From contig JAGAON010000003.1 in the NCBI GenBank assembly GCA_017623655.1, positions 186,001 through 250,000 of the forward strand: a stretch of DNA of 64,000 bases. The letters are read 5' to 3'. This DNA comes from Prevotella sp. Lineage in GTDB: Bacteria > Bacteroidota > Bacteroidia > Bacteroidales > Bacteroidaceae. Each line of letters begins with the position of its first letter. Within the stretch, counting starts at the first letter, position 1. Below the pieces are notes generated by a model. That model saw only the letters and a list, made by a program, of their open reading frames with translations. It was not told the DNA's origin and searched no databases. This document shows, piece by piece, positions 3,058 through 61,322 of this stretch. The translations under genes and the position numbers were made by a program.

Positions 3058-3143
3058 TAAAAGGGTGCTGATTACCATGTAATCAGCACCCTTTTATCGT
3101 GTAATCAGCACCTGATTGCAACGTAATCGGCACCCTTTTACGG
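3058..3143. repeat. 88-bp four-unit repeat array, copy 1
   Basis: Four 22-bp units begin at 3058, 3080, 3102 and 3124 (the last about 20 bp). The unit core is the quasi-palindrome GTAATCAGGTGCTGATTAC in either orientation. Units 1 and 2 form a hairpin of about 17 bp with an A-run before and a T-run after (AAAAGGGTGC...GCACCCTTTT), like a bidirectional terminator. It starts 56 bases after the third FKBP stop. Confidence 0.85.
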
Positions 3144-3203
3144 AGGCATTTGTAATGTGTTGAAATATAATGTATTGTGGAAGGGTGCACTGTGGCTGGC
3201 GAT

Positions 3204-3513
3204 GAACCCCGAAGGGGGTGATATAATAAAGCCCAGGGTGTGAACCCTGGGTTTTGTCATGTTGGACGATAAAACGTATTGGCACCCCGCAGCCGGTAGG
3301 CGAGGAGCACGGAGTGCGACGAGGGGGGTAAGCCTTCTTTCTTGTTGTTTTCGCATGATGGGATTCTCATATCCTTGCATCCTTTTCACACCCCTCGTCG
3401 CCTTGCAGGCTCCTCGCCTGCCGGCTGCGGGGTGCCGATACGTTTGGTGTGATGTAAGATCATGTTCCCAGGGTTTACACCCTGGGCTTTATTATGTCAC
3501 CCCTTCGGGGTTC
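3204..3513. repeat. Large nested inverted-repeat element, copy 1
   Basis: A 310-bp element bounded by GAACCCCGAAGGGGGTGA and TCACCCCTTCGGGGTTC. Moving inward, each arm carries a CCCAGGG...CCCTGGG palindrome, then GCACCCCGCAGCCGG facing CCGGCTGCGGGGTGC, then CGACGAGGGG facing CCCCTCGTCG. The arms match each other but differ from the other copies at several paired sites. No convincing protein is encoded. It lies between convergent genes and, with the 22-bp array, fills the 519-base gap. Confidence 0.85.
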
Positions 3514-3521
3514 GCCGGTTT

Positions 3522-6500
3522 TCAATACGCCTTCACTATCTCCGCCCCACGGTAGTAGTGTGCGAGAATGTCATTGTATGCTATGCCTTTCGCGCCCATT
3601 ACGGCGGCTCCTATCTGGCACAATCCTACGCCGTGTCCCCATCCCTTGCCGTTGAGTATGAAGGAAGTGGGGTAGCCGTCGGCGTCCTTGCCGTGTGTGG
3701 CCACGGTAAATGACGAGCTGTAAAGGCAGGTGTCGGACAGTGCCTTGCGTATTTCCAGCTCCTTGCCAATGGTGAATGTCTTGCGTTCGCCTATGATTTT
3801 CAGCAGGGAGATGCGTCCGCTCTTGCCGCGTTCCACTGCTTCAAGTCCCATGATGCGGCCGAAGTCCATCTTCAGTTTGCCGCTGATGAGGCCGGAAAGC
3901 TCTTCCTGTGTGTATGCCACCATCCAGTCATGGAAGTCCGTTGTCTCCTGATCGTAGCCGTTGAGTACCTCCGAGAGTATCTTCCTGTCCTGCGTGTTGC
4001 AGTAAGGGTCGCTTACGGATGTGAGGTATGGCTTTGTGATGTTCTCCCAACAGTAACGATATTCCTCTGTCATGCCGCCGCAGCATTTTGAGAATCGTGT
4101 GTCGCATATCTCGCCTTGGTACGCCATTACCTGCCCGCGGGTAGCTTTCACCGCTCCGACCACGTGCGGATTGGCGGCGTTCGTGATGCCCTGATACCGT
4201 TGGCAGTGGTCGTCGGCGCAGACATCGAATATGGTATGGTCCTCCCTGTCGTACCATCTGATGAGCGTGTCGTCCTTTTTCACGAACGAGAAGAAGCTGT
4301 CCGCGCCGCTCTTGAGCTGTTGCCGGCGTGCCATCTGCGCCAGAAGCCACGACCGTGAGATTACGGCGTGGGCCTTGAGAAGTTCAAGGCTTGACGTGGC
4401 GGCCATCTCACTGGATATGACACTTTCCAGATAACGCTCCACGGGCAGCTCGTTTATGGCGCAAATCTTGCCGCCTTCCACCACAAGGCGCAGCGTGCCG
4501 AGGAATGTCTGCCGTTGTTTCCGCTCCCAATGGAAGTCTATGCCTATGGTGACATCCTCTATCGTAAAGGCGGCATCGGTTGTCTTCGGACGGAAAACCA
4601 GTTCCCTGTACTGTGTGCCTTGCCACAGGATGGTGCCTTCGGAGCAGGTGACAGTTTGCTGTCCGGTGATGTCTCCGCCCTTGGCGGTATATGTTCCGTT
4701 GAGGATGAAGTGCAGTTCGTCGGCGCTTACGATGCCGACTTTCACGTCAGGCTGCTGTGGCAGGGTTATGGTGCGGTTGTTTTCGGCCTGGCTTTGCGGC
4801 TGTTGGCACAGCGCCTCTATTATCTTCTCCGCGTCAGCGGCGGTTATTCCCACCTCACGCAGTATTCCGGCGGCCTTGTCGGCGGTCAGTTTCTCGAAGT
4901 CCTCACGGCGTGGCGTGATGATAAGGCCGCTCATGTCGAGTGCCCCGGGGCTTATCAACAGTTGGCCGTCACCTTGCCCGTAGTAGCAGTCGGGGCGGTG
5001 TTTGCGGCGCGGCAGCACCACTGTCAGCTGCTCGTCGCCCTGCCTCCACGCCACGATGTTCATCATAGGCTCCTCGTCGTTGTCAGCCTTTGTGCCGGAT
5101 GCGGCCTGTACCTGCGCCATGGCACGGTACAGACGGCGGAACAGTTTGCGCTCCGTTTCGGCGTGGCGGCTGCGTATCAGGAATGCCGGGACGACATAGT
5201 CCGTCAGCAGGCTGATGCTTTCCCCGTCGCCGGCGGATGTGATTTCGCGCAAGGTGCGCATCATTCGCGGCATCATCGACTGCAAAGGCGTCTTCCCTGA
5301 GGTGCCGGCTTGCAGGTGTAGATGGTCCGGTGCCGACGCTCCGCACCGCGGACCGTTGTAGAATACCATCAGTTTCGGGTGCTGGTGCAGCAGATGGTGT
5401 ATGGCCTGGAAGTGCGTATAGATGGCCTGAGGCTCATGGCGCAGCAGGGGAATGGTGAAGTGTTGCGGCAGGATGGGGTAGGGATTGACGAGTATTTCCA
5501 TTTCCTGCTCCTCGTTTTTCCAGAACAACGGCTTGCTGATCTGCCGCTCCGGACGGTTCGTCTTGCATAGGAAGCAGGGGCGTTTCGCCAGTGTCTGCCT
5601 GTCGATGCTTGCTCCGGTGGATACTATCCGCGCCGGATTGTACTGCAACCGCAGGTCTCCGACGTCCTTTGTCTGCACGTTTTGCAGGTCGGAGTAACGC
5701 TGCCGCACCTCGTCCCAGCGCTCCAGCTGACGGTTGAAGAACCGTTGCAGGCTGTCGCCTACGGTGAACGGGAGCATTCCTGCGTTCATCTGGCGGCGTG
5801 CTTTCAGCTCCATTGTGCGCAGACGGTCTTTGTACAGGTTGTTGGCGTTTATCTTTTCTATGCTGAGTGCCGCGTCGCTGTTGCCTCCCCACCTGCGGCA
5901 CAGGTACAGTTCGTCATACAGCCGGCCGATGCGGAAGCGTCGGCTGAACGCCAGTCCCAAGGCGTAGTCCTCGCCGTAGCTTGTGTTCGGGAAGCCTATC
6001 TGGCGCAACAGCGGCGTGAAGAAGGCGCGCGGCGCGCCGAGACCGTTTATGCGCAGCGCGTTGTTGGGGCCGTTGGCGTCGGTCCATTCGCGGTGGTCTA
6101 TGATGCCGGGAGGCAGTGTGTTGAGGTCGAAGTCGCACATACGGTACGCTCCTATGACCATAGCCGCCTTCTGACGGTGGAAACAATCCACTATGCGTTG
6201 CAGCGTATCGGGGCCGGAGTAGAGGTCGTCCGAGTCCAACTGCACGGCGAAGCGGCCGCAGCGGTCATCGTTTACGGCCACGTTCCAGCATCCGCCAATG
6301 CCGAGAGGCAACTGCTGGTGAGTGCTGTCACCGTCGTTTTCCGCCGTTCCCGGGTCCGGTATGATGTGTATCAGCCTGCCGGTCTCGCCGTATTCCTCTT
6401 GCAGTTGGCGCAGGATGGCCGTGGTGTTGTCCGTGGAATGGTTGTCAACGACGATGACGTTGTACTCGAAGCTCGCCTTCTGTGACAGCGCGCTGCGCAC

Positions 6501-7244
6501 TGCATCGGCAATGGTTCTCTCGCGGTTGAACACAGGTATCACGACAGTTGCCTCCACCGGGAAAATCTGTTCGTTGAAGTCAGGCGTCAATGCGTTGCCG
6601 GGCTCTATCTTGGCACCTATAGCTTCCAAGTGTTCCGTCGCCACCTGCTCCATCTCTATCTGCCTGCTGCGGTTGCGCGGGTCAACGTAGTCAAACTGTT
6701 TCTCGCCGCTTTTGCGCGTGTCCAGCTCCTCTTCGGTGTAGAGGTATTCGTTGATGTGGAACAGTTCGCCGTGCCGTTGCAGGTAGAGTCGCATCGCATA
6801 GATGCCGGCGTAGGCGTAGTCCGCCTTCTGCTCTTTCACGAAATCCTTGAACAGTGACGCTCTGACGAGCAGCAACTGGCCGAAGTCGAAGTCGTCGCGT
6901 ATGCTGCCTTCCTGATAGTCGATGAGCGGGTGCGCCTGCCGTTCGCCGTCCGTTACGGTGTAATGGTCGGCATATACCATCGCCGCCCCGGTGTCTGTGG
7001 CGACGCGCAAGAGCCTTTCCAGTGCTTGTCTGCCGAGGGTGAACGGCGTGGATTTCTGCGATAGCATGATATAGTCGGCCTTGGCGGCGGCGGATATGTT
7101 GCGCAGCGTGGCCATGGTGAAGATGTTTTCCCCTTCAAGCAGGTGCAGTTTCCTTATGGCTTTCTCCTTTTTCAGCATTTCCGAGGTAGCCTTGAAGTGG
7201 TTGGCGCTGCTGCAAGGGATGAAGATGTCTATTTTCTGAAACAT
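3522..7244 (-). CDS. Glycosyltransferase / DUF4922 / SpoIID-LytB multidomain fusion protein
   Basis: This 1240-residue protein joins at least three modules. Residues 1-about 215 form a GT2-like fold without clear catalytic motifs. Residues about 230-480 are a canonical GT2 glycosyltransferase ([40 protein letters not shown] as the DxD region). Residues about 545-760 look like DUF4922, a HIT/nucleotidyl-phosphorylase-like module with [13 protein letters not shown] and [10 protein letters not shown] (HxHxQ). Residues about 830-1240 are a SpoIID/LytB domain ([40 protein letters not shown]). SpoIID is a peptidoglycan lytic transglycosylase in Bacillus, so a role in envelope sugar metabolism is likely but inferred. 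No signal peptide is visible, which is puzzling for a SpoIID domain. A 22-bp repeat array separates it from the upstream permease gene. Confidence 0.88.
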
Positions 7245-7288
7245 GGGTTTGTAAGTGGTTGTTATTCAATCGGGTTCTGCCGCTATTG

Positions 7289-7376
7289 CAAAAGGGTGCC
7301 GTTTACCGTGTAATCAGCACCTGATTGCATGGTAAACAGCACCCTTTCACACTGTGATTGGCACCTGATTGTTTTA
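7289..7376. repeat. 88-bp four-unit repeat array, copy 2
   Basis: Units begin at 7289, 7311, 7333 and 7355. The first starts CAAAAGGGTGCCG, and units 2-4 carry the GCACC orientation of the core. It lies 25 bases downstream of the permease stop and 44 bases upstream of the fusion-gene start, both on the minus strand. Confidence 0.85.
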
Positions 7377-7401
7377 TGAGTGTTTATTGCCAATAATTTG
7401 G

Positions 7402-8670
7402 TTAGATGACTTTCTTTATCGGATAGAGCACTGACGCGAATCCTACCGCCACCACGGTGAGGAAGATAAGGATTACGTCGGAGTAGTGGACGCTGACGGG
7501 ATAGGCGTCAACGACGAAGGAACCGCTGGACTCTCCCAGTGACACTATGCCGTACTGTTGTTGCAGCAGGCACAGCAGCAGGCCGAGACCTACGCCGAGG
7601 ATGGCGCCGATGATGCTGATGAGCCAGCCTTCGAGAAGGAATATCTGCCTGATAAGGGAGTCGCGTGCGCCGAGGTTGCGCAGGGTGTCGGCATCCTTTT
7701 TCTTGTCGATGATGAGCATGGAAAGCGAGCCGATGATGTTGAAGCAGGCCACGACAAGTATGAAGGTGAGGAAGATGTAGCCCATCAGTTTCTCTATCTT
7801 CATTATGTTGAACGTGTCTTCCTGCTGCTCGTAGCGGTCCATTACGCGGAAACGCTCTCCGCACACGGCCTGCATCTTCTTTTTCACCGTGGCCACGTCG
7901 CATCCCGGTTTCAGCTTTATCTCAAGGGCGGACAGTTCCCCGTCGCACTGGAACAGCATCCGCGCGAAGGCTATGGAGGTTATGATGTGGTTCTTGTCAT
8001 ACTTGCCTTGCTGTACGCAGAAGACCACGCCGGGGGAGAGCAGCGAGTCAACGACAAAGCCGTCGAGCGGGTTGGCCAGATCCACCTGCCCCGTTCTGCG
8101 CGGCGCGTAGATGTGGAGGTAGCCGTCATAGCGTGCCGGCATGCCGAGCGTCTGTGCGAGGCGTATGCCCGGTGTGCCGTATTGTATGTCGGCGGCGTGC
8201 AGCTCAAACAGTCCGTCACCATAGCAGATGTCGTTTATCCGGCTCAGTTGCGTGAAGTTGTCGTCAACTCCCTTTATTACCACCATGGCCTGCTTGTCGC
8301 CGTAAATGGCGAGAGCCTGGTCCTGTACGCACTCTGTCGCGACCTCCACCTCGTCCATCTTGCGTATCTCGACCAATGCGGGGTCGTCGGCGGCGACGGT
8401 CTTTCCTTTGGCGGGAGTTATCTCTATCTGCGGGTCAAAGGCCGTGAAGAAGGTGGCGACAAGGTCGCTGAAACCGTTGAACACGCTGAGTACGACCACC
8501 ATGGCCATGGTGGCCACCATGACACCGATGACGGAGATGGCGGAGATGAGGTTGATGACGTTGGTGCTTTTCTTTGAGAACAGGTAGCGACGGGCAATGA
8601 AAAAGCCGACCCGCAGGTTGCTTTTCCCGCGGGACTGTTGCCTGAGGCTGTTGCAGTTGTCGTTCTCCAT
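7402..8670 (-). CDS. LolC/LolE-type ABC transporter permease
   Basis: This 422-residue protein has the FtsX/MacB layout of lipoprotein-releasing permeases: a cytoplasmic start, FFIARRYLFSKKSTNVINLI, a first membrane segment (VIGVMVATMAMVVVLSVFNG, about 47-70), a large periplasmic domain (about 75-295) and three C-terminal membrane segments (YIFLTFILVVACFNIIGSL; LISIIGAILGVGLGLLLCLL; the last near VILIFLTVVAVGFASVLYP). LolCE extracts lipoproteins from the inner membrane for delivery to the outer membrane; the ATPase partner is not next to it. It follows rbfA by 17 bases and probably shares its transcript. Confidence 0.9.
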   Translation of the reverse strand: MENDNCNSLRQQSRGKSNLRVGFFIARRYLFSKKSTNVINLISAISVIGVMVATMAMVVVLSVFNGFSDLVATFFTAFDPQIEITPAKGKTVAADDPALVEIRKMDEVEVATECVQDQALAIYGDKQAMVVIKGVDDNFTQLSRINDICYGDGLFELHAADIQYGTPGIRLAQTLGMPARYDGYLHIYAPRRTGQVDLANPLDGFVVDSLLSPGVVFCVQQGKYDKNHIITSIAFARMLFQCDGELSALEIKLKPGCDVATVKKKMQAVCGERFRVMDRYEQQEDTFNIMKIEKLMGYIFLTFILVVACFNIIGSLSMLIIDKKKDADTLRNLGARDSLIRQIFLLEGWLISIIGAILGVGLGLLLCLLQQQYGIVSLGESSGSFVVDAYPVSVHYSDVILIFLTVVAVGFASVLYPIKKVI

Positions 8671-8687
8671 GTGTCCTTGTTACTTAC

Positions 8688-9023
8688 TTATTGTTTCAGC
8701 AGGGTGTCGATACGGTCGATGTAGTCAAGCGAATCGTCGATGAAAAAGCGCAGTTCCGGAATGATGCGGAGCTGGTTCCGCACCTTTTGTCCGAGGTCAT
8801 AGCGTATGGTTGCGACGTTGTTGTTGATGTTTTGCAGCAGTTCCTCGCCTCTTTCCGACGGGAAGATGCTGAGGTATGCGGTGCACACGCTGAGGTCAGG
8901 TGATATTTTTGCGCGTGTGACACTGATCATTACACCGCGCATCTGGCGTGTCTGACTCTGGAATATGAGGCTCAGTTCCTTTTGAAGGAGGCGTGCAATG
9001 CGGTTTTGTCTTGTCTCTTGCAT
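8688..9023 (-). CDS. rbfA: Ribosome-binding factor A
   Basis: This 111-residue protein is a full-length RbfA: QNRIARLLQKELSLIFQ at the start, then the KH-type core with VMISVTRAKISPDLSVCTAY and RNQLRIIPELRFFIDDSLDY. RbfA matures the 30S subunit by binding near helix 1 of 16S rRNA. It is tightly packed between the GH25 lysozyme gene (21 bases upstream) and the permease gene (17 bases downstream), which suggests co-transcription. Confidence 0.96.
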   Translation of the reverse strand: MQETRQNRIARLLQKELSLIFQSQTRQMRGVMISVTRAKISPDLSVCTAYLSIFPSERGEELLQNINNNVATIRYDLGQKVRNQLRIIPELRFFIDDSLDYIDRIDTLLKQ

Positions 9024-9044
9024 AGTAGTACTTGGTATTATTGG

Positions 9045-10805: not shown

Positions 10806-10823
10806 AATGCTTTACAAACTCCT

Positions 10824-13541: not shown

Positions 13542-13615
13542 TATCGTAGTGGTTTTTAGTGGGTTGCATATACCTTTGCCCGCCGTTGCGAGGCAAGGGC
13601 GCAGGCATGGGTTTG

Positions 13616-13703
13616 TAAAAGGGTGCTGATTACCTTGCAATCAGGTGCCGATTACACTGTAATCAGGTGCTGATTATGCGGTAATCAGGTGCTGATTGCG
13701 CCG
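13616..13703. repeat. 88-bp four-unit repeat array, copy 3
   Basis: Units start at 13616, 13638, 13660 and 13682. All four carry the same orientation (GGTGC core), so this copy is a clean direct tandem repeat. It lies 48 bases downstream of greA. Confidence 0.85.
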
Positions 13704-19348: not shown

Positions 19349-19436
19349 TAACAAATTCTTGATTTGACAAAATAAAAACCGATATTTCTATTAGGTTGGC
19401 AAGTGTCTCCGGCAACGGCTGCGGCTGCATGAAAAG

Positions 19437-19524
19437 TAAAAGGGTGCAGATTACCTTGCAATCAGCACCTGATTACAGTGTAAAAGAGGCCTGTTTACAG
19501 TGTAATCGGCACCCTTTTGCAAAA
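19437..19524. repeat. 88-bp four-unit repeat array, copy 4
   Basis: Units begin at 19437, 19459, 19481 and 19503. The outer ends are inverted relative to each other (TAAAAGGGTGC at the left, GCACCCTTTTGC at the right). It sits between divergent genes, upstream of the methyltransferase. The following 200 bases up to the promoter at 19730 show nothing I can name. Confidence 0.85.
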
Positions 19525-19729
19525 CCATGGTAAACAGCCGTCTGCCGGAGGGTGATGTGCCGGCAGGACATTCCCTTGTTTTCCTGTGGCGGAAAAGTCT
19601 TGATACAGAGCCGGATTAAGGCGTGTGTCATGCGCTTTCGGATTTGTAAACGTAACTTAAAAAAGCCCTTTTTGCTCATAATTTGTATAATTAAATAAGA
19701 AAAACGTGCGATTTTCAAGATTTTATGAT

Positions 19730-28094: not shown

Positions 28095-28171
28095 TTGTAG
28101 GGACGCACCTTGGTGCGTCCGAATTACCGTGTTTCCCGTACAGGCGGACGCACCAAGGTGCGTCCCTACAA
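28095..28171. repeat. GGACGCACC palindrome pair, copy 1
   Basis: A 77-bp element. The left arm TTGTAGGGACGCACC/TTGGTGCGTCC and the right arm GGACGCACCAAGGTGCGTCC/CTACAA are each palindromic and also complementary to each other, around a variable centre of about 23 bp. Similar copies lie at 34275, 36821, 49668 and 53159, with single arms at 33815, 52434 and 52645. Confidence 0.85.
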
Positions 28172-28205
28172 GGCGTTGCAAAACAATGCGTTACCAAGGC
28201 TGTCG

Positions 28206-28293
28206 CAAAAGGGTGCTGATTACACTGTAATCAGCACCCTTTTACGTTGTGATTTGCCGCTGATTACACGGTAATCAGGCGCTGATTGCGGAG
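28206..28293. repeat. 88-bp four-unit repeat array, copy 5
   Basis: Units begin at 28206, 28228, 28250 and 28272. Units 1 and 2 form AAAAGGGTGCTGATTA...TAATCAGCACCCTTTT, a 16-bp hairpin with flanking A- and T-runs. Confidence 0.85.
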
Positions 28294-33912: not shown

Positions 33913-34225
33913 GAACCCCGAAGGGGTGACATAATACAGCACAGGGTGTTAACCCTGTGTTTATATGGCATACCTGCAAAACGTATCGGGAACCCCGAAG
34001 CCGTCAGGTGAGGCGGAGTATGCCGCCGAGGGGTGATATATCCATCGCATATCATACGCCATGGCACATCGTTTCAAGATGTTTCCCCATGATTTTGTGT
34101 CACCCCTCGTCGCACGTCGTGCTCCTCGCCTGCCGGCTTCGGGGTTTCCAATACCATTTACACCCATCCGAACGGTAACACAGGGCTTACACCCTGTGCT
34201 GTAATATGTCACCCCTTCGGGGTTC
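33913..34225. repeat. Large nested inverted-repeat element, copy 2
   Basis: A 313-bp element with the same plan as copy 1: GAACCCCGAAGGGGTGA...TCACCCCTTCGGGGTTC ends, CACAGGG palindromes, AACCCCGAAGCCG facing CGGCTTCGGGGTT, and CCGAGGGGTGA facing TCACCCCTCG. The spacer after the outer palindrome reads ATAATACAGC on the left and its near-complement on the right, unlike copy 1. Confidence 0.85.
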
Positions 34226-34274: not shown

Positions 34275-34351
34275 TTGTAGGGACGCACCTTGGTGCGTCC
34301 GAATTTACACATCCCACGCACAGGCGGACGCACCAAGGTGCGTCCCTACAA
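34275..34351. repeat. GGACGCACC palindrome pair, copy 2
   Basis: 77 bp, with both arms intact (TTGTAGGGACGCACC left, GGTGCGTCCCTACAA right). The arms equal those of the copy at 28095; the centre differs. Confidence 0.85.
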
Positions 34352-34398
34352 CGTTGTTTGTAATCATCATGCAGGGAGACCGCCATCGGCGCAAATTG

Positions 34399-34486
34399 TA
34401 AAAGGGTGCAGATTACCTTGTAAATAGGTGCAGATTACGTTGTAATCAGGTGCTGATTGCGATGTAAACAGGTGCTGATTACATCC
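34399..34486. repeat. 88-bp four-unit repeat array, copy 6
   Basis: Units start at 34399, 34421, 34443 and 34465, all in the GGTGC orientation with AGATTAC or TGATTAC variants. About 20 bases beyond the fourth unit (CCGTGCCCTTTATCCGTTGA) also match the sequence after copy 9. Confidence 0.85.
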
Positions 34487-34681: not shown

Positions 34682-34756
34682 GGGCGTTTAGCTCAGCTGG
34701 TTCAGAGCGTCTGCCTTACAAGCAGAGGGTCGGCGGTTCGAATCCGTCAACGCCCA
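34682..34756 (+). tRNA. tRNA-Val (anticodon TAC)
   Basis: A 75-base cloverleaf: acceptor GGGCGTT pairs with AACGCCC, the D-arm is GCTCAGCTGG-TTCAGAGC, the anticodon stem TCTGC/GCAGA holds loop CTTACAA with anticodon TAC at 34717-34719, and the T-arm is GTCGGCGGTTCGAATCCGTC. The CCA end is not encoded beyond CCCA. It is identical to the next copy. Confidence 0.97.
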
Positions 34757-34789
34757 CAAGATAGCACATCAAAGAAGGGAATACCCGGA

Positions 34790-34864
34790 GGGCGTTTAGC
34801 TCAGCTGGTTCAGAGCGTCTGCCTTACAAGCAGAGGGTCGGCGGTTCGAATCCGTCAACGCCCA
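34790..34864 (+). tRNA. tRNA-Val (anticodon TAC), second copy
   Basis: Identical in sequence to the tRNA at 34682 and 33 bases downstream of it, so both come from one transcript. A CT-rich tail with a TTTTT run and a weak hairpin (34888-34921) follow and probably end the transcript. Confidence 0.97.
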
Positions 34865-34887
34865 CTTCTCTCTCTCTAACTCTTTTT

Positions 34888-36457: not shown

Positions 36458-36771
36458 GAACCCCGAAGGGGTGAAATATCCAAGCACAGGGTGTAAGCCC
36501 TGTGTAAAGGTGGTATATCCGCAAAACGTATTGGAAACCTCGAAGCCGGCAGGCGAGGCGGGAGTATGCCGCCGAGGGGTGACATATCCATCGCATATTA
36601 TATACCATGACATAAATTTATGGTGATTATTTCACACGATTTTATTCCACCCCTCGTCGCACTTCGTGCTCCTCGCCTGCCGGCTTCGGGGTTTCCGATA
36701 CCATTTATCTCGTCCGAATGATAACACAGGGTTGACACCCTGTGCTTGGATATTTCACCCCTTCGGGGTTC
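36458..36771. repeat. Large nested inverted-repeat element, copy 3
   Basis: A 314-bp element with ends GAACCCCGAAGGGGTGAAATA and TATTTCACCCCTTCGGGGTTC. The left spacer ATATCCAAGC and the right GCTTGGATAT are exact complements and differ from the other copies. The inner arms are AACCTCGAAGCCGG facing CCGGCTTCGGGGTT. Confidence 0.85.
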
Positions 36772-48780: not shown

Positions 48781-49553
48781 TAGAAGTAAAGAACCTTTAT
48801 AAGTCATTCGACGGCAGGGATGTGCTGATAGACATCAACGCCACGTTTAGGGACGGGCGGACAAACCTCATCATCGGACAGTCCGGGTCGGGAAAGACGG
48901 TACTGATGAAGAACCTTGTGGGGCTGTTCATACCCACAAGCGGGCAGATACTGTATGACGGGCGCGACTTTGTGCAGATGACAAAGCAGGAACGCATAGC
49001 CATGCGCCGCGAGATGGGCATGATATTCCAGTCCGCCGCGCTCTTTGACTCGCTCTCCGTATTGGAGAACGTGATGTTCCCGCTGGATATGTTCTCCAGC
49101 ATGACGCTGCGCGAACGTCAGCGGCGTGCGCAGGAATGTCTTGACCGCGTGAACCTTACCGACGCGGGAGCGAAGTTCCCGGGGGAGATTTCCGGCGGAA
49201 TGCAGAAGCGTGTGGCCATAGCGCGTGCCATCGCCTTGAATCCGAAATACCTGTTCTGTGACGAGCCGAACTCTGGACTTGACCCTAAGACAAGCCTTGT
49301 GATAGACCAGCTGTTGCACGGCATTACGGAGGAGTTTGGCATAACGACGATAATAAACACCCATGACATGAATTCCGTCATGGGGATAGGCGACAGCATT
49401 ATCTTCATCAGCAAGGGAAGGAAAGAGTGGGAAGGTGACAAGACAATGGTCATGTCCGCCACCAACGAGGACCTCAACGACCTCGTTTTCGCGTCAGAGT
49501 TGTTCAAAAAAGTCAAGGCGGTGGAAATGAGCAAGGCACAACCCGCACGGTAA
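48777..49553 (+). CDS. mlaF: ABC transporter ATP-binding protein, MlaF family
   Basis: This 258-residue ATPase has Walker A GQSGSGKT (34-41), the Q-loop in MGMIFQSAALFDSLS, the signature ISGGMQKRVAIARAI, Walker B YLFCDEPNSGLDP and the switch His in NTHDMNSV. It pairs with MlaE. Its TAA stop codon (49551-49553) is formed by the first three bases of a 22-bp repeat unit, so insertion or decay of the array has shaped the gene's end. Confidence 0.95.
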   Translation: MIEVKNLYKSFDGRDVLIDINATFRDGRTNLIIGQSGSGKTVLMKNLVGLFIPTSGQILYDGRDFVQMTKQERIAMRREMGMIFQSAALFDSLSVLENVMFPLDMFSSMTLRERQRRAQECLDRVNLTDAGAKFPGEISGGMQKRVAIARAIALNPKYLFCDEPNSGLDPKTSLVIDQLLHGITEEFGITTIINTHDMNSVMGIGDSIIFISKGRKEWEGDKTMVMSATNEDLNDLVFASELFKKVKAVEMSKAQPAR

Positions 49554-49638
49554 AAGGGTGCTGATTATATTGCAAACAGGTGCTGATTATACAGTAAAAG
49601 GGCGCTGATTACAGTGTAATCAGCGCCCTTTTACTGTG
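49551..49638. repeat. 88-bp four-unit repeat array, copy 7
   Basis: Units begin at 49551, 49573, 49595 and 49617. Units 3 and 4 form a hairpin with a paired change, GGGCGCTGATTAC facing GTAATCAGCGCCC, where other copies have GGGTGC facing GCACCC. Its first three bases are the mlaF stop codon. Confidence 0.88.
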
Positions 49639-51241: not shown

Positions 51242-51270
51242 ATGCCTTACACGTTTTTGTCGTTCGGACT

Positions 51271-52089: not shown

Positions 52090-52230
52090 CTGTGCTGTCG
52101 GTTTGCTGTGGTTGTGGGTGGTATGTGCTGTAATCCAATCGGTTTTCCTTGCCAAAGCCAACGTGAGTTCGGCAATGTTAGATGTGCGGTTTTCAACACC
52201 TTAATAAACAGGTGGTTAGAAGTGTTGTTG

Positions 52231-52318
52231 TAATCGGCACCTGATTACCGTGTAATTTGGTGCTGATTACATTGTGATTTGTACCTGATTACACGGTGAT
52301 TTGCACCTGATTGCCGTG
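52231..52318. repeat. 88-bp four-unit repeat array, copy 8
   Basis: Units begin at 52231, 52253, 52275 and 52297, with mixed orientation (GCACC in 1 and 4, GTACC in 3, GGTGC in 2). It lies inside the predicted 5' leader of the HAD gene, between promoter and start codon. Confidence 0.85.
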
Positions 52319-52742: not shown

Positions 52743-53033
52743 GAACCCCGAAGGGGTGACATATACAAGCACAGGGTGTAAACCCTGTGTTAGGTGATAC
52801 ACCCGTACAACGTATTGGAAACCCCGAAGCCGGTAGGCGAGGCGGGCATTGTCCGCCGAGGGGTGATATATTCGCCGCATATCGTACGCCATGGGATATT
52901 TTTTGTGTCACCCCTCGTCGCACGTTGTGCTCCTCGCCTACCGGCTTCGGGGTTCCCGGTACCATATCCCCGCACACCAATGACAACACAGGGTTTACAC
53001 CCTGTGCTTGTATATGTCACCCCTGCGGGGGTC
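52743..53033. repeat. Large nested inverted-repeat element, copy 4
   Basis: A 291-bp copy. Its left arm GGGGTGACATATACAAGCAC and the right GTGCTTGTATATGTCACCCC are exact complements, and CACAGGGTGTAAACCCTGTG recurs on both sides. The right end has decayed (CCCTGCGGGGGTC). Confidence 0.85.
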
Positions 53034-53238: not shown

Positions 53239-53338
53239 CGCTGTTTGTTATTATTGTGTTGAAATCAGCGGTTTATCACCGCCTTGTTGGTGCTGTGTCA
53301 AAATATGTGCACCACCTTTTCACACTATATTATAATAC

Positions 53339-53390: not shown

Positions 53391-53479
53391 TCTTATATTA
53401 TGATTGTGAAAAGCTTTTACATCTTGGTCTAACTTACAATGTGATTCTCATCTGATTGTTTCGCGTAGCATATAATTTG

Positions 53480-53956: not shown

Positions 53957-54028
53957 TTTTGTTGATTTTTTGTTGTTTTGATGTTATGATAGATAATAAG
54001 TCCGGTTGCTGGGGTGAGACAATAAAAA

Positions 54029-54175
54029 GCGTGGACTAATAACTTCATATACGCTTATCGAGGTATCGCCAAACACCGTTGCACACATATACGAGTAAAA
54101 AGCCCACGCCATATAGGCATGAGCATTAACCATTACTCTTGTGTACTTATTTTAATTTGGCGAATTTCGATAAGC
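54029..54175. other. Structured intergenic element of unknown kind
   Basis: GCTTATCGAGGTATCGCCAA (54053) is complementary to TTGGCGAATTTCGATAAGC (54157) with three mismatches, and GCGTGGAC (54029) to GCCCACGC (54102) with one. The two foldings are alternatives. On the minus strand T-runs follow GCGTGGGC and GTCCACGC, as after terminator stems. No ORF. It may be a switch-like leader of the small lipoprotein gene. Confidence 0.45.
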
Positions 54176-54274
54176 AAGAATAAAGCTAACGCTTATTTAT
54201 CTTTATGTCTTTGACTGTTTATTTTATCATAGGCATTTCTGTTTGCGGTTTGTAAGAACTTGTGTATGGAACCT

Positions 54275-55303: not shown

Positions 55304-55337
55304 TGTTGTAAGTGTATGTTGTTCTCTAAATATGTTT

Positions 55338-55403
55338 ATACCCCAAACTCAACAGTAACGGATATTCCTCTTGGGTAGGGCGTTATTGTTGGGTTTGGGG
55401 TAT
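55338..55403. terminator. Terminator-like hairpin after the TPR gene
   Basis: ATACCCCAAACTCAACAGTAAC pairs with its partner GTTATTGTTGGGTTTGGGGTAT in 20 of 22 positions. It lies 17 bases beyond the TPR-gene stop on the minus strand and probably ends the exbB-TPR operon. Confidence 0.75.
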
Positions 55404-55419
55404 GGAGTGGTTCTGTATT

Positions 55420-56871
55420 TTATTCGCCTGTACCTACAATAGCCTTTGCACTGGCGTTCTCCGAGTCGAGTTGCAACAGCTTTTGGGCGTGTTGCTTTGC
55501 CGTCTCCATGTCGTCCATGCAGTGCACGTAGTATGCGCATACAGCGCTGTATGCGTTAATCAGGAGTTTTGTCTCGCCTTCGCTGCGGTCTTTGCTGGCT
55601 TCAAGGATGTTTGCGAGGGTAAGGTAGTGCGGGCCTGCCATCTTGAGTTTCTCCATGTCGGTTGCCTCAAGGGCGAATGGTAACTTGGCACGCTTGCTGG
55701 CGATGTAGGCGGCGTTGGTTGGGTATTTCTCTGCCAACTGTGCGTAGATTTCGTCTGCCTTGGCGTATGCTTCCTTCTTGCGCTCCGGCGTTGTCTTGTC
55801 GTCCATCAGTTCGTCTGCGAAGAGAGTGGCAAGGGTTTCGTCAAGACTGAAGGATGATTGTGTCTGCGCTTTGAGATATTTGTCGAGATATTCGCCGGCT
55901 TTGTTGTAGTTGCTGAGCTTCTTGTAGCAGTCAGAGATGTCCTTGTTCTTCTCTGCAACGGTTGCGGCGTCGATGTCCTCGAGTTGCTGTATCTTTTCGT
56001 AGCTCTTGATGGCTTCCTCGTACTTCTGCGCTCCTTTGAGGGCGGTAGCGTAGTAGTTGTAGTCGTAAGCGGTGATCTTTGCTGAGTCTGATGCGTTGAA
56101 GAGGTTGTTGCCTGCGGCTATGGCTGCGTCGTAATTCTTGTTGGATGTCTCGTTGAACATGATGAGACGGTTCATTGAGGCGTTGCGCGGCCACTTCTGA
56201 TGTCCGTAGTTGGCTACTTCAAGAGACTTGGCATAGTCTTGCGAGAGGAAGAGGTTGGTGGAGTAGTCGGAAACCTGATAGTCCTTCATCTTGTCGAGGC
56301 TGACCTTTGAGTAGTATTCATTGGCCTGCTTCATCTTGCCGCTGCTTGAGTATATCTCCGCTGCGATGAGGTCAACGGGATAGTCGGGACGGTGCTTGCG
56401 CAAGTCTTCCAGTGTCTGCACTGCGCCGTTAGGGTCTGTCTTGCTCATGATTTGCGCATAGCGGCGGTAACCGTCCGGGTTCTGCGGGTCGCCATAGATG
56501 GCTTGCTGGAACCATTGTGCGGCTGCGCCACCGTCATCTTCCGCCACGGCGATGTTGCCGAGAAGAACGAATGTCGCACCCTTTTCCTCTGCGGTGCCTT
56601 TCTTGTTTACAAGCTCAAGGGCTTTGTTTGCATATTCCTTTGCGTTGGCTTTGTCGTTGGCTGCAAGGTATGCTTTGGCGATACTTACCAAGGCAAGGGC
56701 GTTCTTCTTGTTTTCTTTCGCTATGTCCTCTATCTGGTCTTTTGCGTCATCAGTGTTGCTTTTGATGAGGGCAGATACCTTTGTCATGATTTCGTCTGGC
56801 TGGGATTGAGCCATGGCAGGAGCACCGATGATAATCATCATGGCTCCGATAATGAGTTTCTTTGTTATCAT
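55420..56871 (-). CDS. Tetratricopeptide-repeat periplasmic protein
   Basis: This 483-residue protein has a signal peptide (LIIGAMMIIIGAPAMAQ) and about nine TPR-like helical repeats (for example ALVSIAKAYLAANDKANAKE, GATFVLLGNIAVAEDDGGAA, YYATALKGAQKYEEAIKSYE). TPR arrays mediate protein-protein contacts. It is the last gene of the exbB-exbD-exbD-tonB-pstS run, 55 bases after pstS, so it may organise the TonB energising complex or its cargo. Confidence 0.88.
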   Translation of the reverse strand: MITKKLIIGAMMIIIGAPAMAQSQPDEIMTKVSALIKSNTDDAKDQIEDIAKENKKNALALVSIAKAYLAANDKANAKEYANKALELVNKKGTAEEKGATFVLLGNIAVAEDDGGAAAQWFQQAIYGDPQNPDGYRRYAQIMSKTDPNGAVQTLEDLRKHRPDYPVDLIAAEIYSSSGKMKQANEYYSKVSLDKMKDYQVSDYSTNLFLSQDYAKSLEVANYGHQKWPRNASMNRLIMFNETSNKNYDAAIAAGNNLFNASDSAKITAYDYNYYATALKGAQKYEEAIKSYEKIQQLEDIDAATVAEKNKDISDCYKKLSNYNKAGEYLDKYLKAQTQSSFSLDETLATLFADELMDDKTTPERKKEAYAKADEIYAQLAEKYPTNAAYIASKRAKLPFALEATDMEKLKMAGPHYLTLANILEASKDRSEGETKLLINAYSAVCAYYVHCMDDMETAKQHAQKLLQLDSENASAKAIVGTGE

Positions 56872-56926
56872 TTGTTCTATGTTTTTATTTTTGTTGTATT
56901 GTTAGTCGTTGAAGGCTACCGTGTAT

Positions 56927-57883
56927 TCAGTCTGTCACGTGTATGTTGCGCACCGTGAGGTTACCGTATGCAGGCAACAGTCCGGCTTTCAATATTACTA
57001 TCTGGCCGCGGTCTTGGGATATTATGAAGTTCTTGAATCCGGTAGGCAGACCCATGTGGGTGTCGTTAAGTAAGATGTAGATGGTGCGCACGAATGGGTA
57101 GTTGCCGTTGTAGAAGTAGTATTGGTATGGTTTCCAAGAGTTCCTTACGTTGGCGACATCGAGTTTTGATACAGCCATCGGGCGCACTTCCTTGCGGAAA
57201 GTGAGGTTGGTGCTGTCACGCTGGTCGTTCAGCCAGTTGCTGCCGATAATGCCGATGGCTCCCTTGTGCTTCTCTACATAAGTGACCACGTCGGCTGTCT
57301 TGTTTACCGCAAAGACATTGGGGCTTGTTATAGGCTTGCCGCCAAGGATGCTGTCTTCCACATAGTGTACGGTGGAGGAGCGGCGGTTGTCAAAGACTAC
57401 GGTGATTTCTCCCTTGTCGGAACCGGGGTATATCTGGTTCCAGTGTGTCACCTCGCCTGTCAGTATTTTCTTTATATCTTTTACACTGATGCAGGAATCA
57501 GTGTTTGCAGTGTTCTGAATCAGGGCCAGTCCGTCGTATCCTATTCTGACGGAGATGGGGAATTGCTTGCGGTCTTTGAGACTTTGAAGTTCCGCAGGCT
57601 TGAAGTCACGCGCGGTGACGGCCATGCTCACCTTGCCTTGCAGCAACAGGTTGATGGCTTCCGACTCGCTGGTGTATATCGGGGTAAGCTTTGCGAGCGG
57701 GTATAACGCTTCGAAGAGCGAACGCTCCTCATCGATGATGGGGCTAAAACTTTCGTCAGAGGCGAAAGAAATCGCCCCTGACGAGTAAGTGTCTGTACGG
57801 CCGCTTTTGTTCTTGTGACCACAAGAACAAAAGCCTGCCATAAGTGTTAATCCTACTATTATGTAAGATATGGTTTTACGCAT
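56927..57883 (-). CDS. PstS-like phosphate-binding lipoprotein
   Basis: This 318-residue protein has a lipoprotein signal (IVGLTLMAGFCSC, Cys21) and a PBP_like_2 fold: SGAISFASDESFSPIIDEER, EGE-like clamp regions, VFDNRRSSTVHYVEDSIL and GIIGSNWLND. PstS proteins bind phosphate for ABC uptake, but here the gene lies between tonB and a TPR gene rather than with pstCAB. It starts 25 bases after tonB, so a TonB-linked role is likely; the true ligand is not certain. Confidence 0.8.
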   Translation of the reverse strand: MRKTISYIIVGLTLMAGFCSCGHKNKSGRTDTYSSGAISFASDESFSPIIDEERSLFEALYPLAKLTPIYTSESEAINLLLQGKVSMAVTARDFKPAELQSLKDRKQFPISVRIGYDGLALIQNTANTDSCISVKDIKKILTGEVTHWNQIYPGSDKGEITVVFDNRRSSTVHYVEDSILGGKPITSPNVFAVNKTADVVTYVEKHKGAIGIIGSNWLNDQRDSTNLTFRKEVRPMAVSKLDVANVRNSWKPYQYYFYNGNYPFVRTIYILLNDTHMGLPTGFKNFIISQDRGQIVILKAGLLPAYGNLTVRNIHVTD

Positions 57884-57908
57884 TTTACAAATTTTGTGAT
57901 GAAAGGGA

Positions 57909-58751
57909 TTATTGGAGACGGAATGTCACAGGCAGGGTGTATTTCACACGTACTGCTGAGCCATTCTGCTTACCGGGAATCCAATGTGGCATTGACTTGA
58001 TGACACGCATTGCCTCCTTGTCGAGTGACGGGTCAACAGACTTTGCTACACGCACGTCTGTGATAGAACCGTCACGCTCTACGACGAAGGTACATATCAC
58101 GCGTCCTTGGATGCCGTTCTCTTCCGCTATCACCGGATAATGAATGTTTTTGTTGAGGTATTGCATCAGTGCACCCATACCGCCGGGATAAGAAGGCATC
58201 TGTTCAACAACGTCGAACACCTTGTTCTCTTCTTCCTTTGGCTTGACAGGCTCTTGTGCTATGACCTCCTTGGCTTTCAGCACTTCACCGCTTTCGTCGT
58301 TACCGACCACATCGAATGAACCGATTGCGGCGCTGCTCTTCATAATCTCATCCTGTGATTTCAACTCGTCCTCAGGCTTCACTTCATCATCTTTCTTGAT
58401 GACAGGGGCGGTGAACTTAACGGAGCTCTTTACCTTCTCCACTACTTTCTGAACTTCCTCCTGCTTCACAAGCTGCTTACGCTCTACCTTCGGTTCCTTC
58501 TTCTTCTGCTGTGTAAGAGCAGAGAGTTCGGTCACTTGGTTCATAGCTGCTCTTTTTGCTGCTGCCTCATCCGCAATGTTCTTGAGGGTAAGACCGATCT
58601 GACATGCGATAGCGAGCAAGATAACAGCCACAATAGCCACTACATTACGGCGGCCGGTACTCTTACGGAGGGCGTAGGCGCCATAAGCCTGGTTACGGTC
58701 CGCAAAGACTATGTCGGTCCATTCACCAGATATTAGATCTATTTTTGACAT
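57909..58751 (-). CDS. TonB family protein
   Basis: This 280-residue protein has a cytoplasmic start with NQAYGAYALRKSTGRRNVVA, one membrane segment (about 37-57, VVAIVAVILLAIACQIGLTL), a Lys/Glu-rich spacer (about 70-185) and a TonB C-terminal domain (about 200-280: SYPGGMGALMQYLNKNIHYP; QGRVICTFVVERDGSITDVR). It transmits proton-motive energy from ExbB/ExbD to outer-membrane receptors. It begins 48 bases after the second ExbD gene. Confidence 0.93.
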   Translation of the reverse strand: MSKIDLISGEWTDIVFADRNQAYGAYALRKSTGRRNVVAIVAVILLAIACQIGLTLKNIADEAAAKRAAMNQVTELSALTQQKKKEPKVERKQLVKQEEVQKVVEKVKSSVKFTAPVIKKDDEVKPEDELKSQDEIMKSSAAIGSFDVVGNDESGEVLKAKEVIAQEPVKPKEEENKVFDVVEQMPSYPGGMGALMQYLNKNIHYPVIAEENGIQGRVICTFVVERDGSITDVRVAKSVDPSLDKEAMRVIKSMPHWIPGKQNGSAVRVKYTLPVTFRLQ

Positions 58752-58799
58752 TGTAATTATCTTTTTGATTGTTAATACTGATCCTTGCCTTACGACGGA

Positions 58800-59432
58800 C
58801 TATTTTACTCCTTTCTCTTCAAGGAGCTTTTTGTCCTGATCGTTGATTTTGTCAAGGACGTACTTGCCAATGCTGCATATCTGCATCTCGTCAAGGGCGT
58901 CAACTACGTTCTTGTAAGTGGAAGCGTCTGTTGCCTTTATGATGATGGTCATGGTTTGAATCTTCTCGCCATTGATAACGCCACCCTTAATTTTTGAAAG
59001 CTCTGCGGAGTATTCTGCTTCCGTCATCTTGTCTTTCTGTTCGTCAAGTTTGGCCTTGGCCATCATTACCTGAAGTACAGGCTGTGTGCCATCCTCTGTC
59101 ACGTGTTTCTGGAGAACCTTGCGTATGCCGTTCTTGCCCCATGTCGTTTCTTTAAGGCAGGAAGGGTCGTCATACTTTGGCTGTCCTTCCACATAGTAGA
59201 GTTTGTTGTTTGAGGCAACATACATGGTGATGGTATATGAAGCCTTTGTCACTGACTTGTCATTATCTTCAAGGTTCTTGTCGTTTGACGGCATACTCAG
59301 TTCCATTGACTGAGGTTTTGCCAGAGAGGTACAGAGCATGAAGAAAGTGATAAGAAGCATCATCATATCAACCATCGGCGTGAAGTCCACGCGGACGTTC
59401 ATTTTCTTTTGCTTTTCTTGTTTCTTTGCCAT
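58800..59432 (-). CDS. ExbD/TolR biopolymer transport protein (second)
   Basis: This 210-residue protein has MNVRVDFTPMVDMMMLLITF, the ExbD transmembrane motif with the conserved Asp, a single N-terminal membrane segment (about 16-37) and a periplasmic domain with a longer middle insert than E. coli ExbD. It works with ExbB in the proton channel. It lies 3 bases after the first ExbD gene, indicating coupling. Confidence 0.93.
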   Translation of the reverse strand: MAKKQEKQKKMNVRVDFTPMVDMMMLLITFFMLCTSLAKPQSMELSMPSNDKNLEDNDKSVTKASYTITMYVASNNKLYYVEGQPKYDDPSCLKETTWGKNGIRKVLQKHVTEDGTQPVLQVMMAKAKLDEQKDKMTEAEYSAELSKIKGGVINGEKIQTMTIIIKATDASTYKNVVDALDEMQICSIGKYVLDKINDQDKKLLEEKGVK

Positions 59433-59435
59433 TTA

Positions 59436-60053
59436 TTAATCCTCCCCTGTCTTTAAAGATGTGATAAGGTAGTAACGGTTCTGATCCATATCCTGAAGCT
59501 CAGACATAATTTTCTTGATGTTGGCATACGGAGTGTCAGAGTCTGCCTTGATGGCAATCTTGATGTCCTCTGTATTTTCAACGACAGAAGTTACCCATTC
59601 CTGAAACTCGCTCTTTCCGTTGTTTATGGAGTCGGTAGGTATGCCGGCTTCCTTGCCTGTGATGGCTTCCGTCATCTTGTCGTTTGGAAGAGAGAGATAT
59701 GTTTTCAGCAGTGACAGGCTCATGCCCCACATTGGGTCGGTCTGAAACTTCTTCATTTCCTGGGCAGTCAGTTGCAGGTCAAACTTGGAATCCATGTCCT
59801 GGATTACAGTCATCATGTCGTTCTGATTGTCCATACTCATAAATACCTTGCCGCTTTTATCGACAATGATATTAAGGACGTCTTTCTCCGGAATCTTGAT
59901 CTCCGATACGGACATCGGCTGGTTTACCTTTACCGGCTCATTCTTCACGAACGTTGACGTGAGCATGAAGAATGTCAGCAAAAGCACCATCACGTCCGAC
60001 ATAGGAGTCATGTCAATCCAGACGTCGCTTTTCTTAATTTTTAACTTACCCAT
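59436..60053 (-). CDS. ExbD/TolR biopolymer transport protein (first)
   Basis: This 205-residue protein begins MGKLKIKKSDVWIDMTPMSD, the ExbD signature, with a membrane segment (about 17-37) and a periplasmic domain. Two different ExbD proteins in one operon are usual in Bacteroidetes and may form a mixed channel. It lies 32 bases after exbB. Confidence 0.93.
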   Translation of the reverse strand: MGKLKIKKSDVWIDMTPMSDVMVLLLTFFMLTSTFVKNEPVKVNQPMSVSEIKIPEKDVLNIIVDKSGKVFMSMDNQNDMMTVIQDMDSKFDLQLTAQEMKKFQTDPMWGMSLSLLKTYLSLPNDKMTEAITGKEAGIPTDSINNGKSEFQEWVTSVVENTEDIKIAIKADSDTPYANIKKIMSELQDMDQNRYYLITSLKTGED

Positions 60054-60085
60054 AACTGAATAAAATTTAAAGGGTTAGCAAAAAA

Positions 60086-60910
60086 TTAAGCTTCTGGGTG
60101 CTTGTCTTCGTATGTATGAGCGATTGTGTAACCAATCTCGTCCATTGCAAATGTAAGCTTGTCGATCTTGTTTGTGAAGTAGTTGTAAGCAACTACGGAA
60201 ACCCAAGAGGTAGCGATACCAGAAGCGGTGTTCACAAGGGCCTCGGAGATACCGGTAGAAAGTGCCATGGAGTCAGCGCCGCCACCAGCTGCAAGAGCTG
60301 CGAATGAACGTATCATACCAAGCACGGTACCGAAGAGGGCGGTAAGAGTACCAAGTGTTACGATGGTTGCGATGATAGGAAGGTTCATCGTCATTGTAGG
60401 CATCTCAAGTGCACTTGCCTCTTCGTGAGCGTTCTGGATGGCTGCAACCTTCTCTTTGAGCTTGATAGGAGCGGTTTCCATTTCCTTGTAAGCCTTGAGG
60501 TCTGCGAGGACAACGTTAGCGACAGAACCCTTCTGCTTGTTGCAGAGCTCTTCCGCCTTTGCGATGTCTCCGTCCTTGAGAGCTTTCTTTACGTTCTCGG
60601 TGAACTTTGTTACGTTGCCCTTACCTGCGCAAGCTGAGATGGCGATGATACGCTCGACAGACATTGCGATGACAGTGCAGAGAAGACCGAGGATGATAGG
60701 AACGACCCAACCACCTTTATACACTGTTCCGAGCATGTTCAGAGGGTGACCTTCCGGATCGCCGTTAGCGAAGTTGCTTGGGTTACCGAGGAAGAAGAGG
60801 TAGAAGCAAACACCCACTGCGAAAGCAAGGATAATGATGATGATTGCGTGTCTTACACCCTGGAAGCCTGCTGACTTCTTAGGTGCGGCTGTTTTTTTTG
60901 TAGCTGCCAT
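60086..60910 (-). CDS. ExbB/TolQ/MotA-type proton channel protein
   Basis: This 274-residue protein has an extra N-terminal region ahead of a first membrane segment (about 22-44), a second (about 70-90), a cytoplasmic helical region (about 100-170) and the TolQ/ExbB core (MNLPIIATIVTLGTLTALFG; TGISEALVNTASGIATSWVS). It forms the pentameric proton channel that powers TonB. It leads the six-gene operon and has a promoter 118 bases upstream. Confidence 0.93.
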   Translation of the reverse strand: MAATKKTAAPKKSAGFQGVRHAIIIIILAFAVGVCFYLFFLGNPSNFANGDPEGHPLNMLGTVYKGGWVVPIILGLLCTVIAMSVERIIAISACAGKGNVTKFTENVKKALKDGDIAKAEELCNKQKGSVANVVLADLKAYKEMETAPIKLKEKVAAIQNAHEEASALEMPTMTMNLPIIATIVTLGTLTALFGTVLGMIRSFAALAAGGGADSMALSTGISEALVNTASGIATSWVSVVAYNYFTNKIDKLTFAMDEIGYTIAHTYEDKHPEA

Positions 60911-61027
60911 AATTGTTTGATTAGTTTTAAATTATTAATTAATTAAATTGATTATAGTATTAATTTCGTGTTTTGTTTTAAGGCGGTTTAAGGTCAGTGA
61001 TGATATGCGTCCGCACGTTTTCAAACA

Positions 61028-61035
61028 CAAAGTTA
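61028..61035 (-). promoter_or_regulatory. -7 element for the exbB-TPR operon
   Basis: The minus strand reads TAACTTTG; the AT-rich leader to the exbB start is about 110 bases. Confidence 0.7.
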
Positions 61036-61111
61036 GCAAATAAAATAGAACTACGGCAAGGATTTAGAACTTTTAACAAAAAAAAGTTGGTCTCACCCGT
61101 TTATTGCGCGT

Positions 61112-61140
61112 AAAAAGGAGACCTGACAAGTCTCCTTTTT
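61112..61140. terminator. Bidirectional terminator between exbB and aspC regions
   Basis: AAAAAGGAGAC pairs with GTCTCCTTTTT (11 bp, 7-base loop). It lies downstream of aspC beyond the repeat array and upstream of the exbB promoter, insulating the two units. Confidence 0.75.
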
Positions 61141-61234
61141 ACATATTGTGTTTCTGCATTGTCATTATCGCATATAGGGCGGTAATCCTGTCCTGCGTGA
61201 GTCCTGTAAAGCCTGCCGGTGCCGGTGCTCCTGA

Positions 61235-61322
61235 CAAAAGGGTGCAGATTACCTTGTAATCAAGTGCAGATTGCATTGTAATCAGGTGCTGTTTGCGCTA
61301 TAATCAGGCGCTAATTACATCC
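61235..61322. repeat. 88-bp four-unit repeat array, copy 9
   Basis: Units begin at 61235, 61257, 61279 and 61301, all in the same orientation. About 20 bases beyond (CCGTGTCCTTTTGCCGTTGA) match the extension of copy 6. It lies 80 bases after the aspC stop. Confidence 0.85.

Follow-up and report, generated by a model that had tools for sequence, protein, structure and literature searches.

What kind of element is the 85-bp palindromic array that recurs nine times between the genes of a 64-kb stretch of a Prevotella genome, and what might read it? The stretch (hereafter the window) comprises the 64,000 nucleotides at positions 186,001 to 250,000 of contig JAGAON010000003.1 of Prevotella sp., a metagenome-assembled genome (MAG) of 1.93 Mb that is 60% complete and is called the host below; other genomes and sampled loci are referred to by G and L numbers. 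A first-pass annotation of the window had described nine intergenic copies of four tandem 22-bp quasi-palindromic units and had raised the possibility of a protein bound to one face of the DNA. The arrays are best explained as evenly spaced docking sites for a multimeric protein that would organise or insulate the nucleoid. We assign this explanation a probability of roughly 0.4, and we infer three of its parts: the protein binder, its stoichiometry and its role as an anchor.

Occurrence and unit number

A position matrix trained on the nine arrays finds nine four-unit chains in the window, with every interval equal to 22 bp, and a single further match, a lone weak one at 19658; 60 simulated Markov-1 windows contain no chain of at least two units. 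A de novo scan, covering periods of 19-27 bp and looking for four palindromic units of like sequence, also returns nine arrays, all of period 22 (two of them picked up in the junction register), and no palindromic four-unit array at any other period in that range. All nine arrays are thus recovered where the annotation had placed them (Table 1). A search of the window against Rfam at the gathering threshold places no family on the arrays.

The host was sampled as the window plus 20 stretches of 20 kb picked around unit matches (464 kb). Genome-wide, the host contains 347 unit matches at up to two mismatches and none to a reversed control pattern, and the number of arrays is estimated at about 220 from unit counts and at 270-300 from density. 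With two edge arrays excluded, 61 of 71 host arrays have four units, four have two, three have three and three have five. Four units are thus a strong mode in the host and not a law. The constancy of unit number proposed from the window, where it is complete (9/9), does not extend to the relative G016, in which the 40 arrays of a contiguous 400-kb stretch, not selected by matches, mostly have five units (19) or four (16), with six in the other five.

Anatomy of the array

The 61 four-unit host arrays taken for a sequence logo are all exactly 85 bp long. Across all sampled loci, those of relatives included, the interval between units is 22 bp in 506 of 506 cases (chains of at least three units, with 20-24 bp allowed; some loci overlap, so some arrays are counted twice), and the period originally proposed is correct. 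The unit reads G-Y-A-A...T-T-R-C over 19 bp and is followed by a nearly free 3-nt linker; core positions carry 1.75 bits of information and spacer positions 0.54. Regular short repeats recall clustered regularly interspaced short palindromic repeats (CRISPR), but the arrays have 3-nt linkers only, lack spacers and are scattered over a few hundred places, in agreement with the earlier statement that they are not CRISPR.

The units are nearly self-complementary and occur in either orientation, as had been noted. However, self-complementarity is equal at unit centres and at the junctions between units in the host, G016, G102 and G210 (5 of the 40 divergent arrays described below, L160, L166, L173, L179 and L182, were left out of this profile for a contig edge, extra units or a poor frame). 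Because the palindrome is as strong at the junctions as at the unit centres, the simplest description of the array is not a 22-bp basic repeat but eight half-sites, alternately inverted, one per 11 bp. The ends of the array are built in: in genomic orientation, 68 of 122 outermost half-sites are of the AAAAGG type, compared with 4, 8 and 9 of 122 in the three inner position classes. Half-sites within a unit are negatively coupled (odds ratio 0.37, p = 7e-4); a fixed unit polarity may underlie this coupling, which is not taken here as proof of selection.

Each unit is capable of folding, and the arrays could in principle act at the RNA level, as hairpins that terminate transcription or shield mRNA 3' ends. 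A weak bias towards gene 3' ends and a mild preference for convergent gaps (both detailed below) are in line with such a role. The arms, however, do not covary: across 244 units Watson-Crick pairs occur at or below the frequency expected from composition, G-T mismatches are no commoner than A-C mismatches, the sense strand included, and in no register are paired half-sites positively coupled beyond noise. Single-strand structure is disfavoured by this lack of covariation, and hairpins of RNA or of single-stranded DNA were dropped as candidates; an RNA-level element is very unlikely. The data speak for an array read as double-stranded DNA, half-site by half-site. Cooperative binding along one side of the helix would leave such a pattern of exact spacing and almost unconstrained linkers. 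The geometry, judged from the letters, is consistent with the one-face protein suggested by the first-pass annotation, and the reader of the array would presumably be a protein.

Even spacing along the chromosome

The 72 arrays in the 464 kb of host sequence define 58 gaps within contiguous blocks. The smallest gap is 2393 bp, the mean is 6002 bp, the coefficient of variation (CV) is 0.44, and none of the 58 gaps is below 2 kb. If arrays were placed uniformly over intergenic bases, 22.3 gaps below 2 kb would be expected (lowest of 3000 runs, 13); with one array per intergenic region, 12.6 would be expected (lowest, 4). Two other repeat families in this host sequence cluster instead: gaps below 2 kb make up 14 of 26 in one and 8 of 14 in the other, and the CVs are 1.23 and 1.43.

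In G016 the mean gap is 8.7 kb and the CV is 0.40, and one gap is shorter than 2 kb (1582 bp, involving a weak match). When two arrays with midpoints in called genes are removed, 38 arrays remain, with no gap below 2 kb and a CV of 0.49. The two null models give CVs of 1.15 and 0.93 for G016 (lowest of 2000 runs, 0.70 and 0.50) and 10.4 and 4.4 gaps below 2 kb (lowest, 2 and 0). The arrays are therefore over-dispersed in two species, the host and G016, that use different letters. A separate observation in G016 is a pair of much alike arrays 7 kb apart (contig C1, 1002143 and 1009389) with a common right flank, a candidate recent duplication.

Position relative to genes

Genes were called with our own script. 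All nine window arrays are intergenic, one of them overlapping a stop codon by 4 bp. Among 73 host arrays, 66 are intergenic, two run about 15 bp into the end of a called gene and five lie unclassed at stretch edges; the claim of intergenic placement is therefore upheld for 66 of the 68 classed arrays, the other two touching gene ends. Two of 40 array midpoints in G016 fall inside called genes and may be false. A location just 3' of a gene, also claimed earlier, is present as a weak bias only: where the flanking genes are in tandem, the 3' end is nearer than the 5' end in 28 of 42 host cases and 12 of 18 in G016. Convergent gaps are mildly favoured, holding 16 of 66 arrays compared with 21 of 133 gaps in the host and 14 of 37 compared with 23 of 121 in G016.

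Intergenic placement, dimer-type half-sites and one-face geometry are also features to be expected of a genome-wide operator set, through which one transcription regulator would act on adjacent genes. Divergent gaps, where promoter faces promoter, are nevertheless not preferred (8 of 66 arrays compared with 23 of 133 gaps in the host; 5 of 37 compared with 23 of 121 in G016), convergent gaps hold more arrays, and arrays more often lie closer to the 3' end of the preceding gene than to the 5' end of the following one. Even spacing is likewise unexpected for operators, and this alternative is improbable.

Gain, loss and overwriting at orthologous sites

Two window sites were followed through relatives. 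The site 3' of greA carries an array in the host, G021 and G273 and no accepted array in the 17 other genomes fetched; G016, counted as absent, is borderline (its score of 2.86 barely exceeds the null maximum, 2.79), and the G260 sequence is truncated at 362 bp. The site downstream of the LolC-like gene carries an array in the host and, with other letters, in G199. G273 and G021, although much closer, lack one, as do 17 others among the 20 genomes fetched; the intergenic gap is 157 bp in the host versus 41 bp in G273 and G021. The G001 ortholog of the gap at window position 61235 is 162 bp shorter and has no array; the set of relatives' loci behind this comparison was mostly chosen for holding a unit and thus favours presence.

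Where arrays are present, their content is not stable. Over exactly 85 bp, four host arrays share 94-98% identity, while their flanks are at background save for one shared right flank. For two of these four, the array at the orthologous site in G021 (87%) or G273 (80-82%) is less similar than the host paralogues are to one another (96%). At seven orthologous loci (nine comparisons) array identity ranges from 0.61 to 0.87, and at three of them it does not exceed the median for host arrays paired at random (mean 0.695). Sites thus gain or lose arrays, and resident arrays are overwritten in place; ectopic copying from one array to another would be the simplest account. Core positions stay alike at orthologous sites while spacers randomise, a likeness that can reflect overwriting by family members and not only selection at each site.

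One ortholog pair (L056 and its G021 counterpart) has diverged equally fast at core and spacer positions, as expected of neutral, decaying repeats whose architecture arose by chance. Such an origin is scarcely credible in view of the exact intervals, the built ends, the difference between core and spacer information and the even spacing in two species.

Two further proposals about array movement were rejected. Arrays do not bound a horizontally exchanged 4-kb block (L058 versus L038, 96% identical), since the block runs past the left array to the contig edge. Nor do arrays appear to have been inserted into the centre of a pre-existing palindrome, their own flanks being no more symmetric than shuffled pairs. 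Within the same block, which is mostly 94-100% identical between the two Prevotella genomes, about 870 bp (L058:6905-7772) are unrelated, which suggests a swapped gene cassette.

Distribution and letters in other genomes

Of 38 named stretches that match the exact 18-mer of the unit, 33 belong to Prevotella or Prevotellaceae. Among 36 genomes of the genus, the exact unit occurs frequently in three, the host included, and once in two more. The four-unit profile R1, built from 52 arrays (51 of the 61 four-unit host arrays and one from G016), matches 43 of 249 genomes of the genus, the host included (18 candidates scored per genome), and 14 of 399 genomes of the family (11 scored per genome), of which three, all weak, lie outside the genus. 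Eleven stretches of viral contigs with the 18-mer contain isolated units only and no arrays.

Forty arrays from six genomes, drawn from the best profile matches of those genomes, have different half-site letters in the same 19+3 frame; four is again the usual unit number, L166 and L179 being among the exceptions. The half-sites read TAATYTG in G016, TAAAAGG in G102 and G089, and TAAACAA or TAAAAGG in G210; G010 has AAAAGG-type arrays that the profile missed. Outside the host, the de novo scan also returns matches off the 22-bp period: one at 20, one at 21 and two at 23 bp in G003, one at 20 in G016, one at 21 in G026 and four at 21 in G009, a genome for which simple repeats are listed at that period.

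Further tandem arrays, of 21-23 bp and very different in their letters, occur in other Prevotella genomes (L107:3189, L108:1979, L120:13824, L136:950, L121:18111 and L142:13754); the AAGAGACGCCCTCTTTG-like units of period 22 in G003 and G026 are an example. These divergent-letter arrays may be further, recoded members of the class.

Relation to mobile repeats and known systems

The absence of the array in close kin at the LolC-like site and in the G001 ortholog of 61235, the four near-identical host arrays with largely unrelated flanks, the single geometry with species-specific letters and the near restriction to one genus would all be accounted for by a non-autonomous mobile repeat, similar to a miniature inverted-repeat transposable element (MITE) or to repetitive extragenic palindromic (REP) elements. 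A transposase or recombinase supplied in trans would then recognise the half-sites, and its short-range target immunity would produce the even spacing. As in a MITE, the element is short, non-coding, dispersed and present or absent at orthologous sites. Its outermost half-sites are inverted, but inspection by eye and comparison of flanks show no target-site duplication and no terminal inverted repeat beyond the array, the empty-site kin being too diverged to place the junction. Plasmids and phages, each queried with one array, gave no match. Turnover of content at fixed sites requires ectopic copying between resident arrays as well.

The host has one identified Y1 transposase, IS200-like by length and sequence, with a three-unit array about 600 bp upstream (the genome is incomplete). 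No REP-type palindrome is present at its locus. Within this search, which covered Y1 proteins, a REP-associated tyrosine transposase (RAYT) is a doubtful source of the arrays. The mobile-repeat explanation is a close rival, slightly less probable than the docking-site explanation, and the two can be true together.

The arrays match no known family, as first stated, in so far as neither Rfam nor the literature searched, in which subscription journals are mostly outside coverage, contains a description of them. The nearest kind by life style is that of REP elements and bacterial interspersed mosaic elements (BIMEs): intergenic palindromes in alternating orientation that are species-specific and proposed to be mobilised by RAYTs (PMC2817692), BIME-2 binding DNA gyrase (PMC2817692, PMC6379681). 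The arrays are likewise extragenic, made of alternating palindromes, species-specific and present in more than 100 copies. They differ from REPs and BIMEs in lacking GTAG or GGAG beside the units (0 of 244), in lacking complementary changes in the arms and in having an exact 22-bp period, a usual unit number and even chromosomal spacing.

Porphyromonas gingivalis, the host of the BrickBuilt MITE, belongs to Bacteroidales. BrickBuilt is described as a 23-nt tandem direct repeat of widely varying number that has a leader, a tail and inverted ends of IS5 type; strain ATCC 33277 carries 19 copies (PMC4596501). Both elements consist of intergenic tandem units without spacers, but the arrays have units that are 22 bp long, palindromic and mostly four in number.

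The ends of Tn7 and Mu also contain repeated transposase sites of about 22 bp, and insertion near existing copies is avoided through target immunity. The arrays differ in being palindromic and not direct repeats, and neither ends nor cargo were seen, although no search was aimed at such a transposase.

A docking-site model and the evidence against it

If the arrays are docking sites, each would be recognised, as double-stranded DNA, by one multimeric protein with sequence specificity. With a single helical turn (11 bp) from one half-site to the next, the eight would provide four dimer sites on one DNA face, and the distinct outermost half-sites would cap the complex, so that the unit number would normally be four in the host. 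Recurring every 6-9 kb or so between genes, the sites would serve as evenly spaced anchors of the nucleoid, delimiting loops or supercoil domains. Copies would spread by copying into new intergenic places and would then be homogenised between sites; each species would therefore have its own letters while geometry and spacing persist.

Several observations weigh against this explanation. Even spacing would also follow from target immunity of a transposing element. In G016 only the CV is exceptional, the count of short gaps alone being unexceptional against the one-per-region null. G001 shows no even spacing: its 21 arrays in 20 stretches leave five gaps within blocks, of which one measures 66 bp and the other four 14-28 kb. 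One pair of arrays in G021 is 264 bp apart, and matches closer than 120-150 bp were merged before gaps were measured. The host MAG is incomplete (60%), its stretches were chosen around unit matches and its genes come from our own script. The de novo scan detected no array of period 22 when run on G004 (100 kb), G024 (60 kb) and three further genomes (60 kb), and R1, being four units long, is blind to shorter arrays. Individual sites are dispensable, with the array present in 2 of 19 other genomes at greA and in 1 of 20 at the LolC-like gene.

Moreover, no binder was found. Lrp/AsnC proteins are described as four-dimer proteins (PMC8481266), and DNA wrapped round four dimers could give four palindromic sites with dyads at both units and junctions. 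Two Lrp/AsnC paralogues are present in all ten genomes searched, and 17 of 20 loci were aligned. The recognition helix of the first paralogue is identical in G004, G010, G016, G024, G026, G089 and G102, which between them represent several types of half-site; the host and G273 depart from it at about three residues. The helix thus does not follow the half-site letters, and Lrp/AsnC was rejected as the binder.

Other repeats and features in the window

Table 1. Arrays and neighbouring REP-type repeats in the window
Feature	Position	Strand	Description
Array 1	3057..3141	+	Four 22-bp units; both outermost half-sites of AAAAGG type
Array 2	7288..7372	+	Four units; downstream of a gene with FtsX/MacB domain (LolC-like); site empty in G273 and G021
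Array 3	13615..13699	+	Four units; 3' of greA; orthologous site in G021 and G273 also occupied
Array 4	19436..19520	+	Four units; flanked by divergent genes
Array 5	28205..28289	+	Four units; REP-type palindrome 35 bp before
Array 6	34398..34482	+	Four units; REP-type palindrome 48 bp before
Array 7	49550..49634	+	Four units; begins at the stop codon of an ABC transporter gene
Array 8	52230..52314	-	Four units
Array 9	61234..61318	+	Four units; orthologous gap in G001 162 bp shorter, without array
REP-type pair beside array 5	28101..28166	.	Two copies of GTAG + GGACGCACC WW GGTGCGTCC; outside the array
REP-type pair beside array 6	34281..34346	.	Two copies of the GTAG-type family; outside the array

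A REP-type family of the form GTAG + GGACGCACC WW GGTGCGTCC occurs in the window at 28101, 28146, 33821, 34281, 34326 and 49741. There are 35 exact copies in the 464 kb of host sequence, all 35 exact palindromes carry GTAG, and the family clusters. In six of 38 broader matches the distance to an array is exactly 35 bp and the linker is homologous. The flanks of host arrays show a weak motif centred 33 bp beyond the end units; in some copies it overlaps the linker shared with this family, and it is not a constant part of the element.

Seven matches to the Rfam family Acido-Lenti-1 (3205-3251, 3467-3512, 33914-33959, 34179-34224, 36459-36504, 36725-36770 and 52744-52789) represent a third dispersed repeat in this Prevotella, with a CCCCTTCGGGG hairpin; the family name points to Acidobacteria and Lentisphaerae. 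A tandem pair of tRNA-Val(TAC) genes is located at 34682-34865.

Significance for the Prevotella chromosome

The arrays combine a fixed geometry, built ends and over-dispersion in two differently lettered species, while two other repeats of the host cluster. In its most far-reaching form, which is doubtful, the docking-site explanation would make the arrays a chromosome ruler: a fast-evolving multimeric protein and its 85-bp arrays would partition the nucleoids of many Prevotella species about every 6-9 kb, into loops or supercoil domains, and binding specificity and arrays would be re-lettered together in each species by gene conversion. Concerted re-lettering of hundreds of sites would, if true, be a striking case of co-evolution between a binder and its sites. 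Should transposition immunity be responsible for the spacing instead, it would be a short-ranged and efficient case in an element without recognised ends. The arrays would make it directly testable whether the boundaries of loops or supercoil domains are written in the sequence of bacterial chromosomes.

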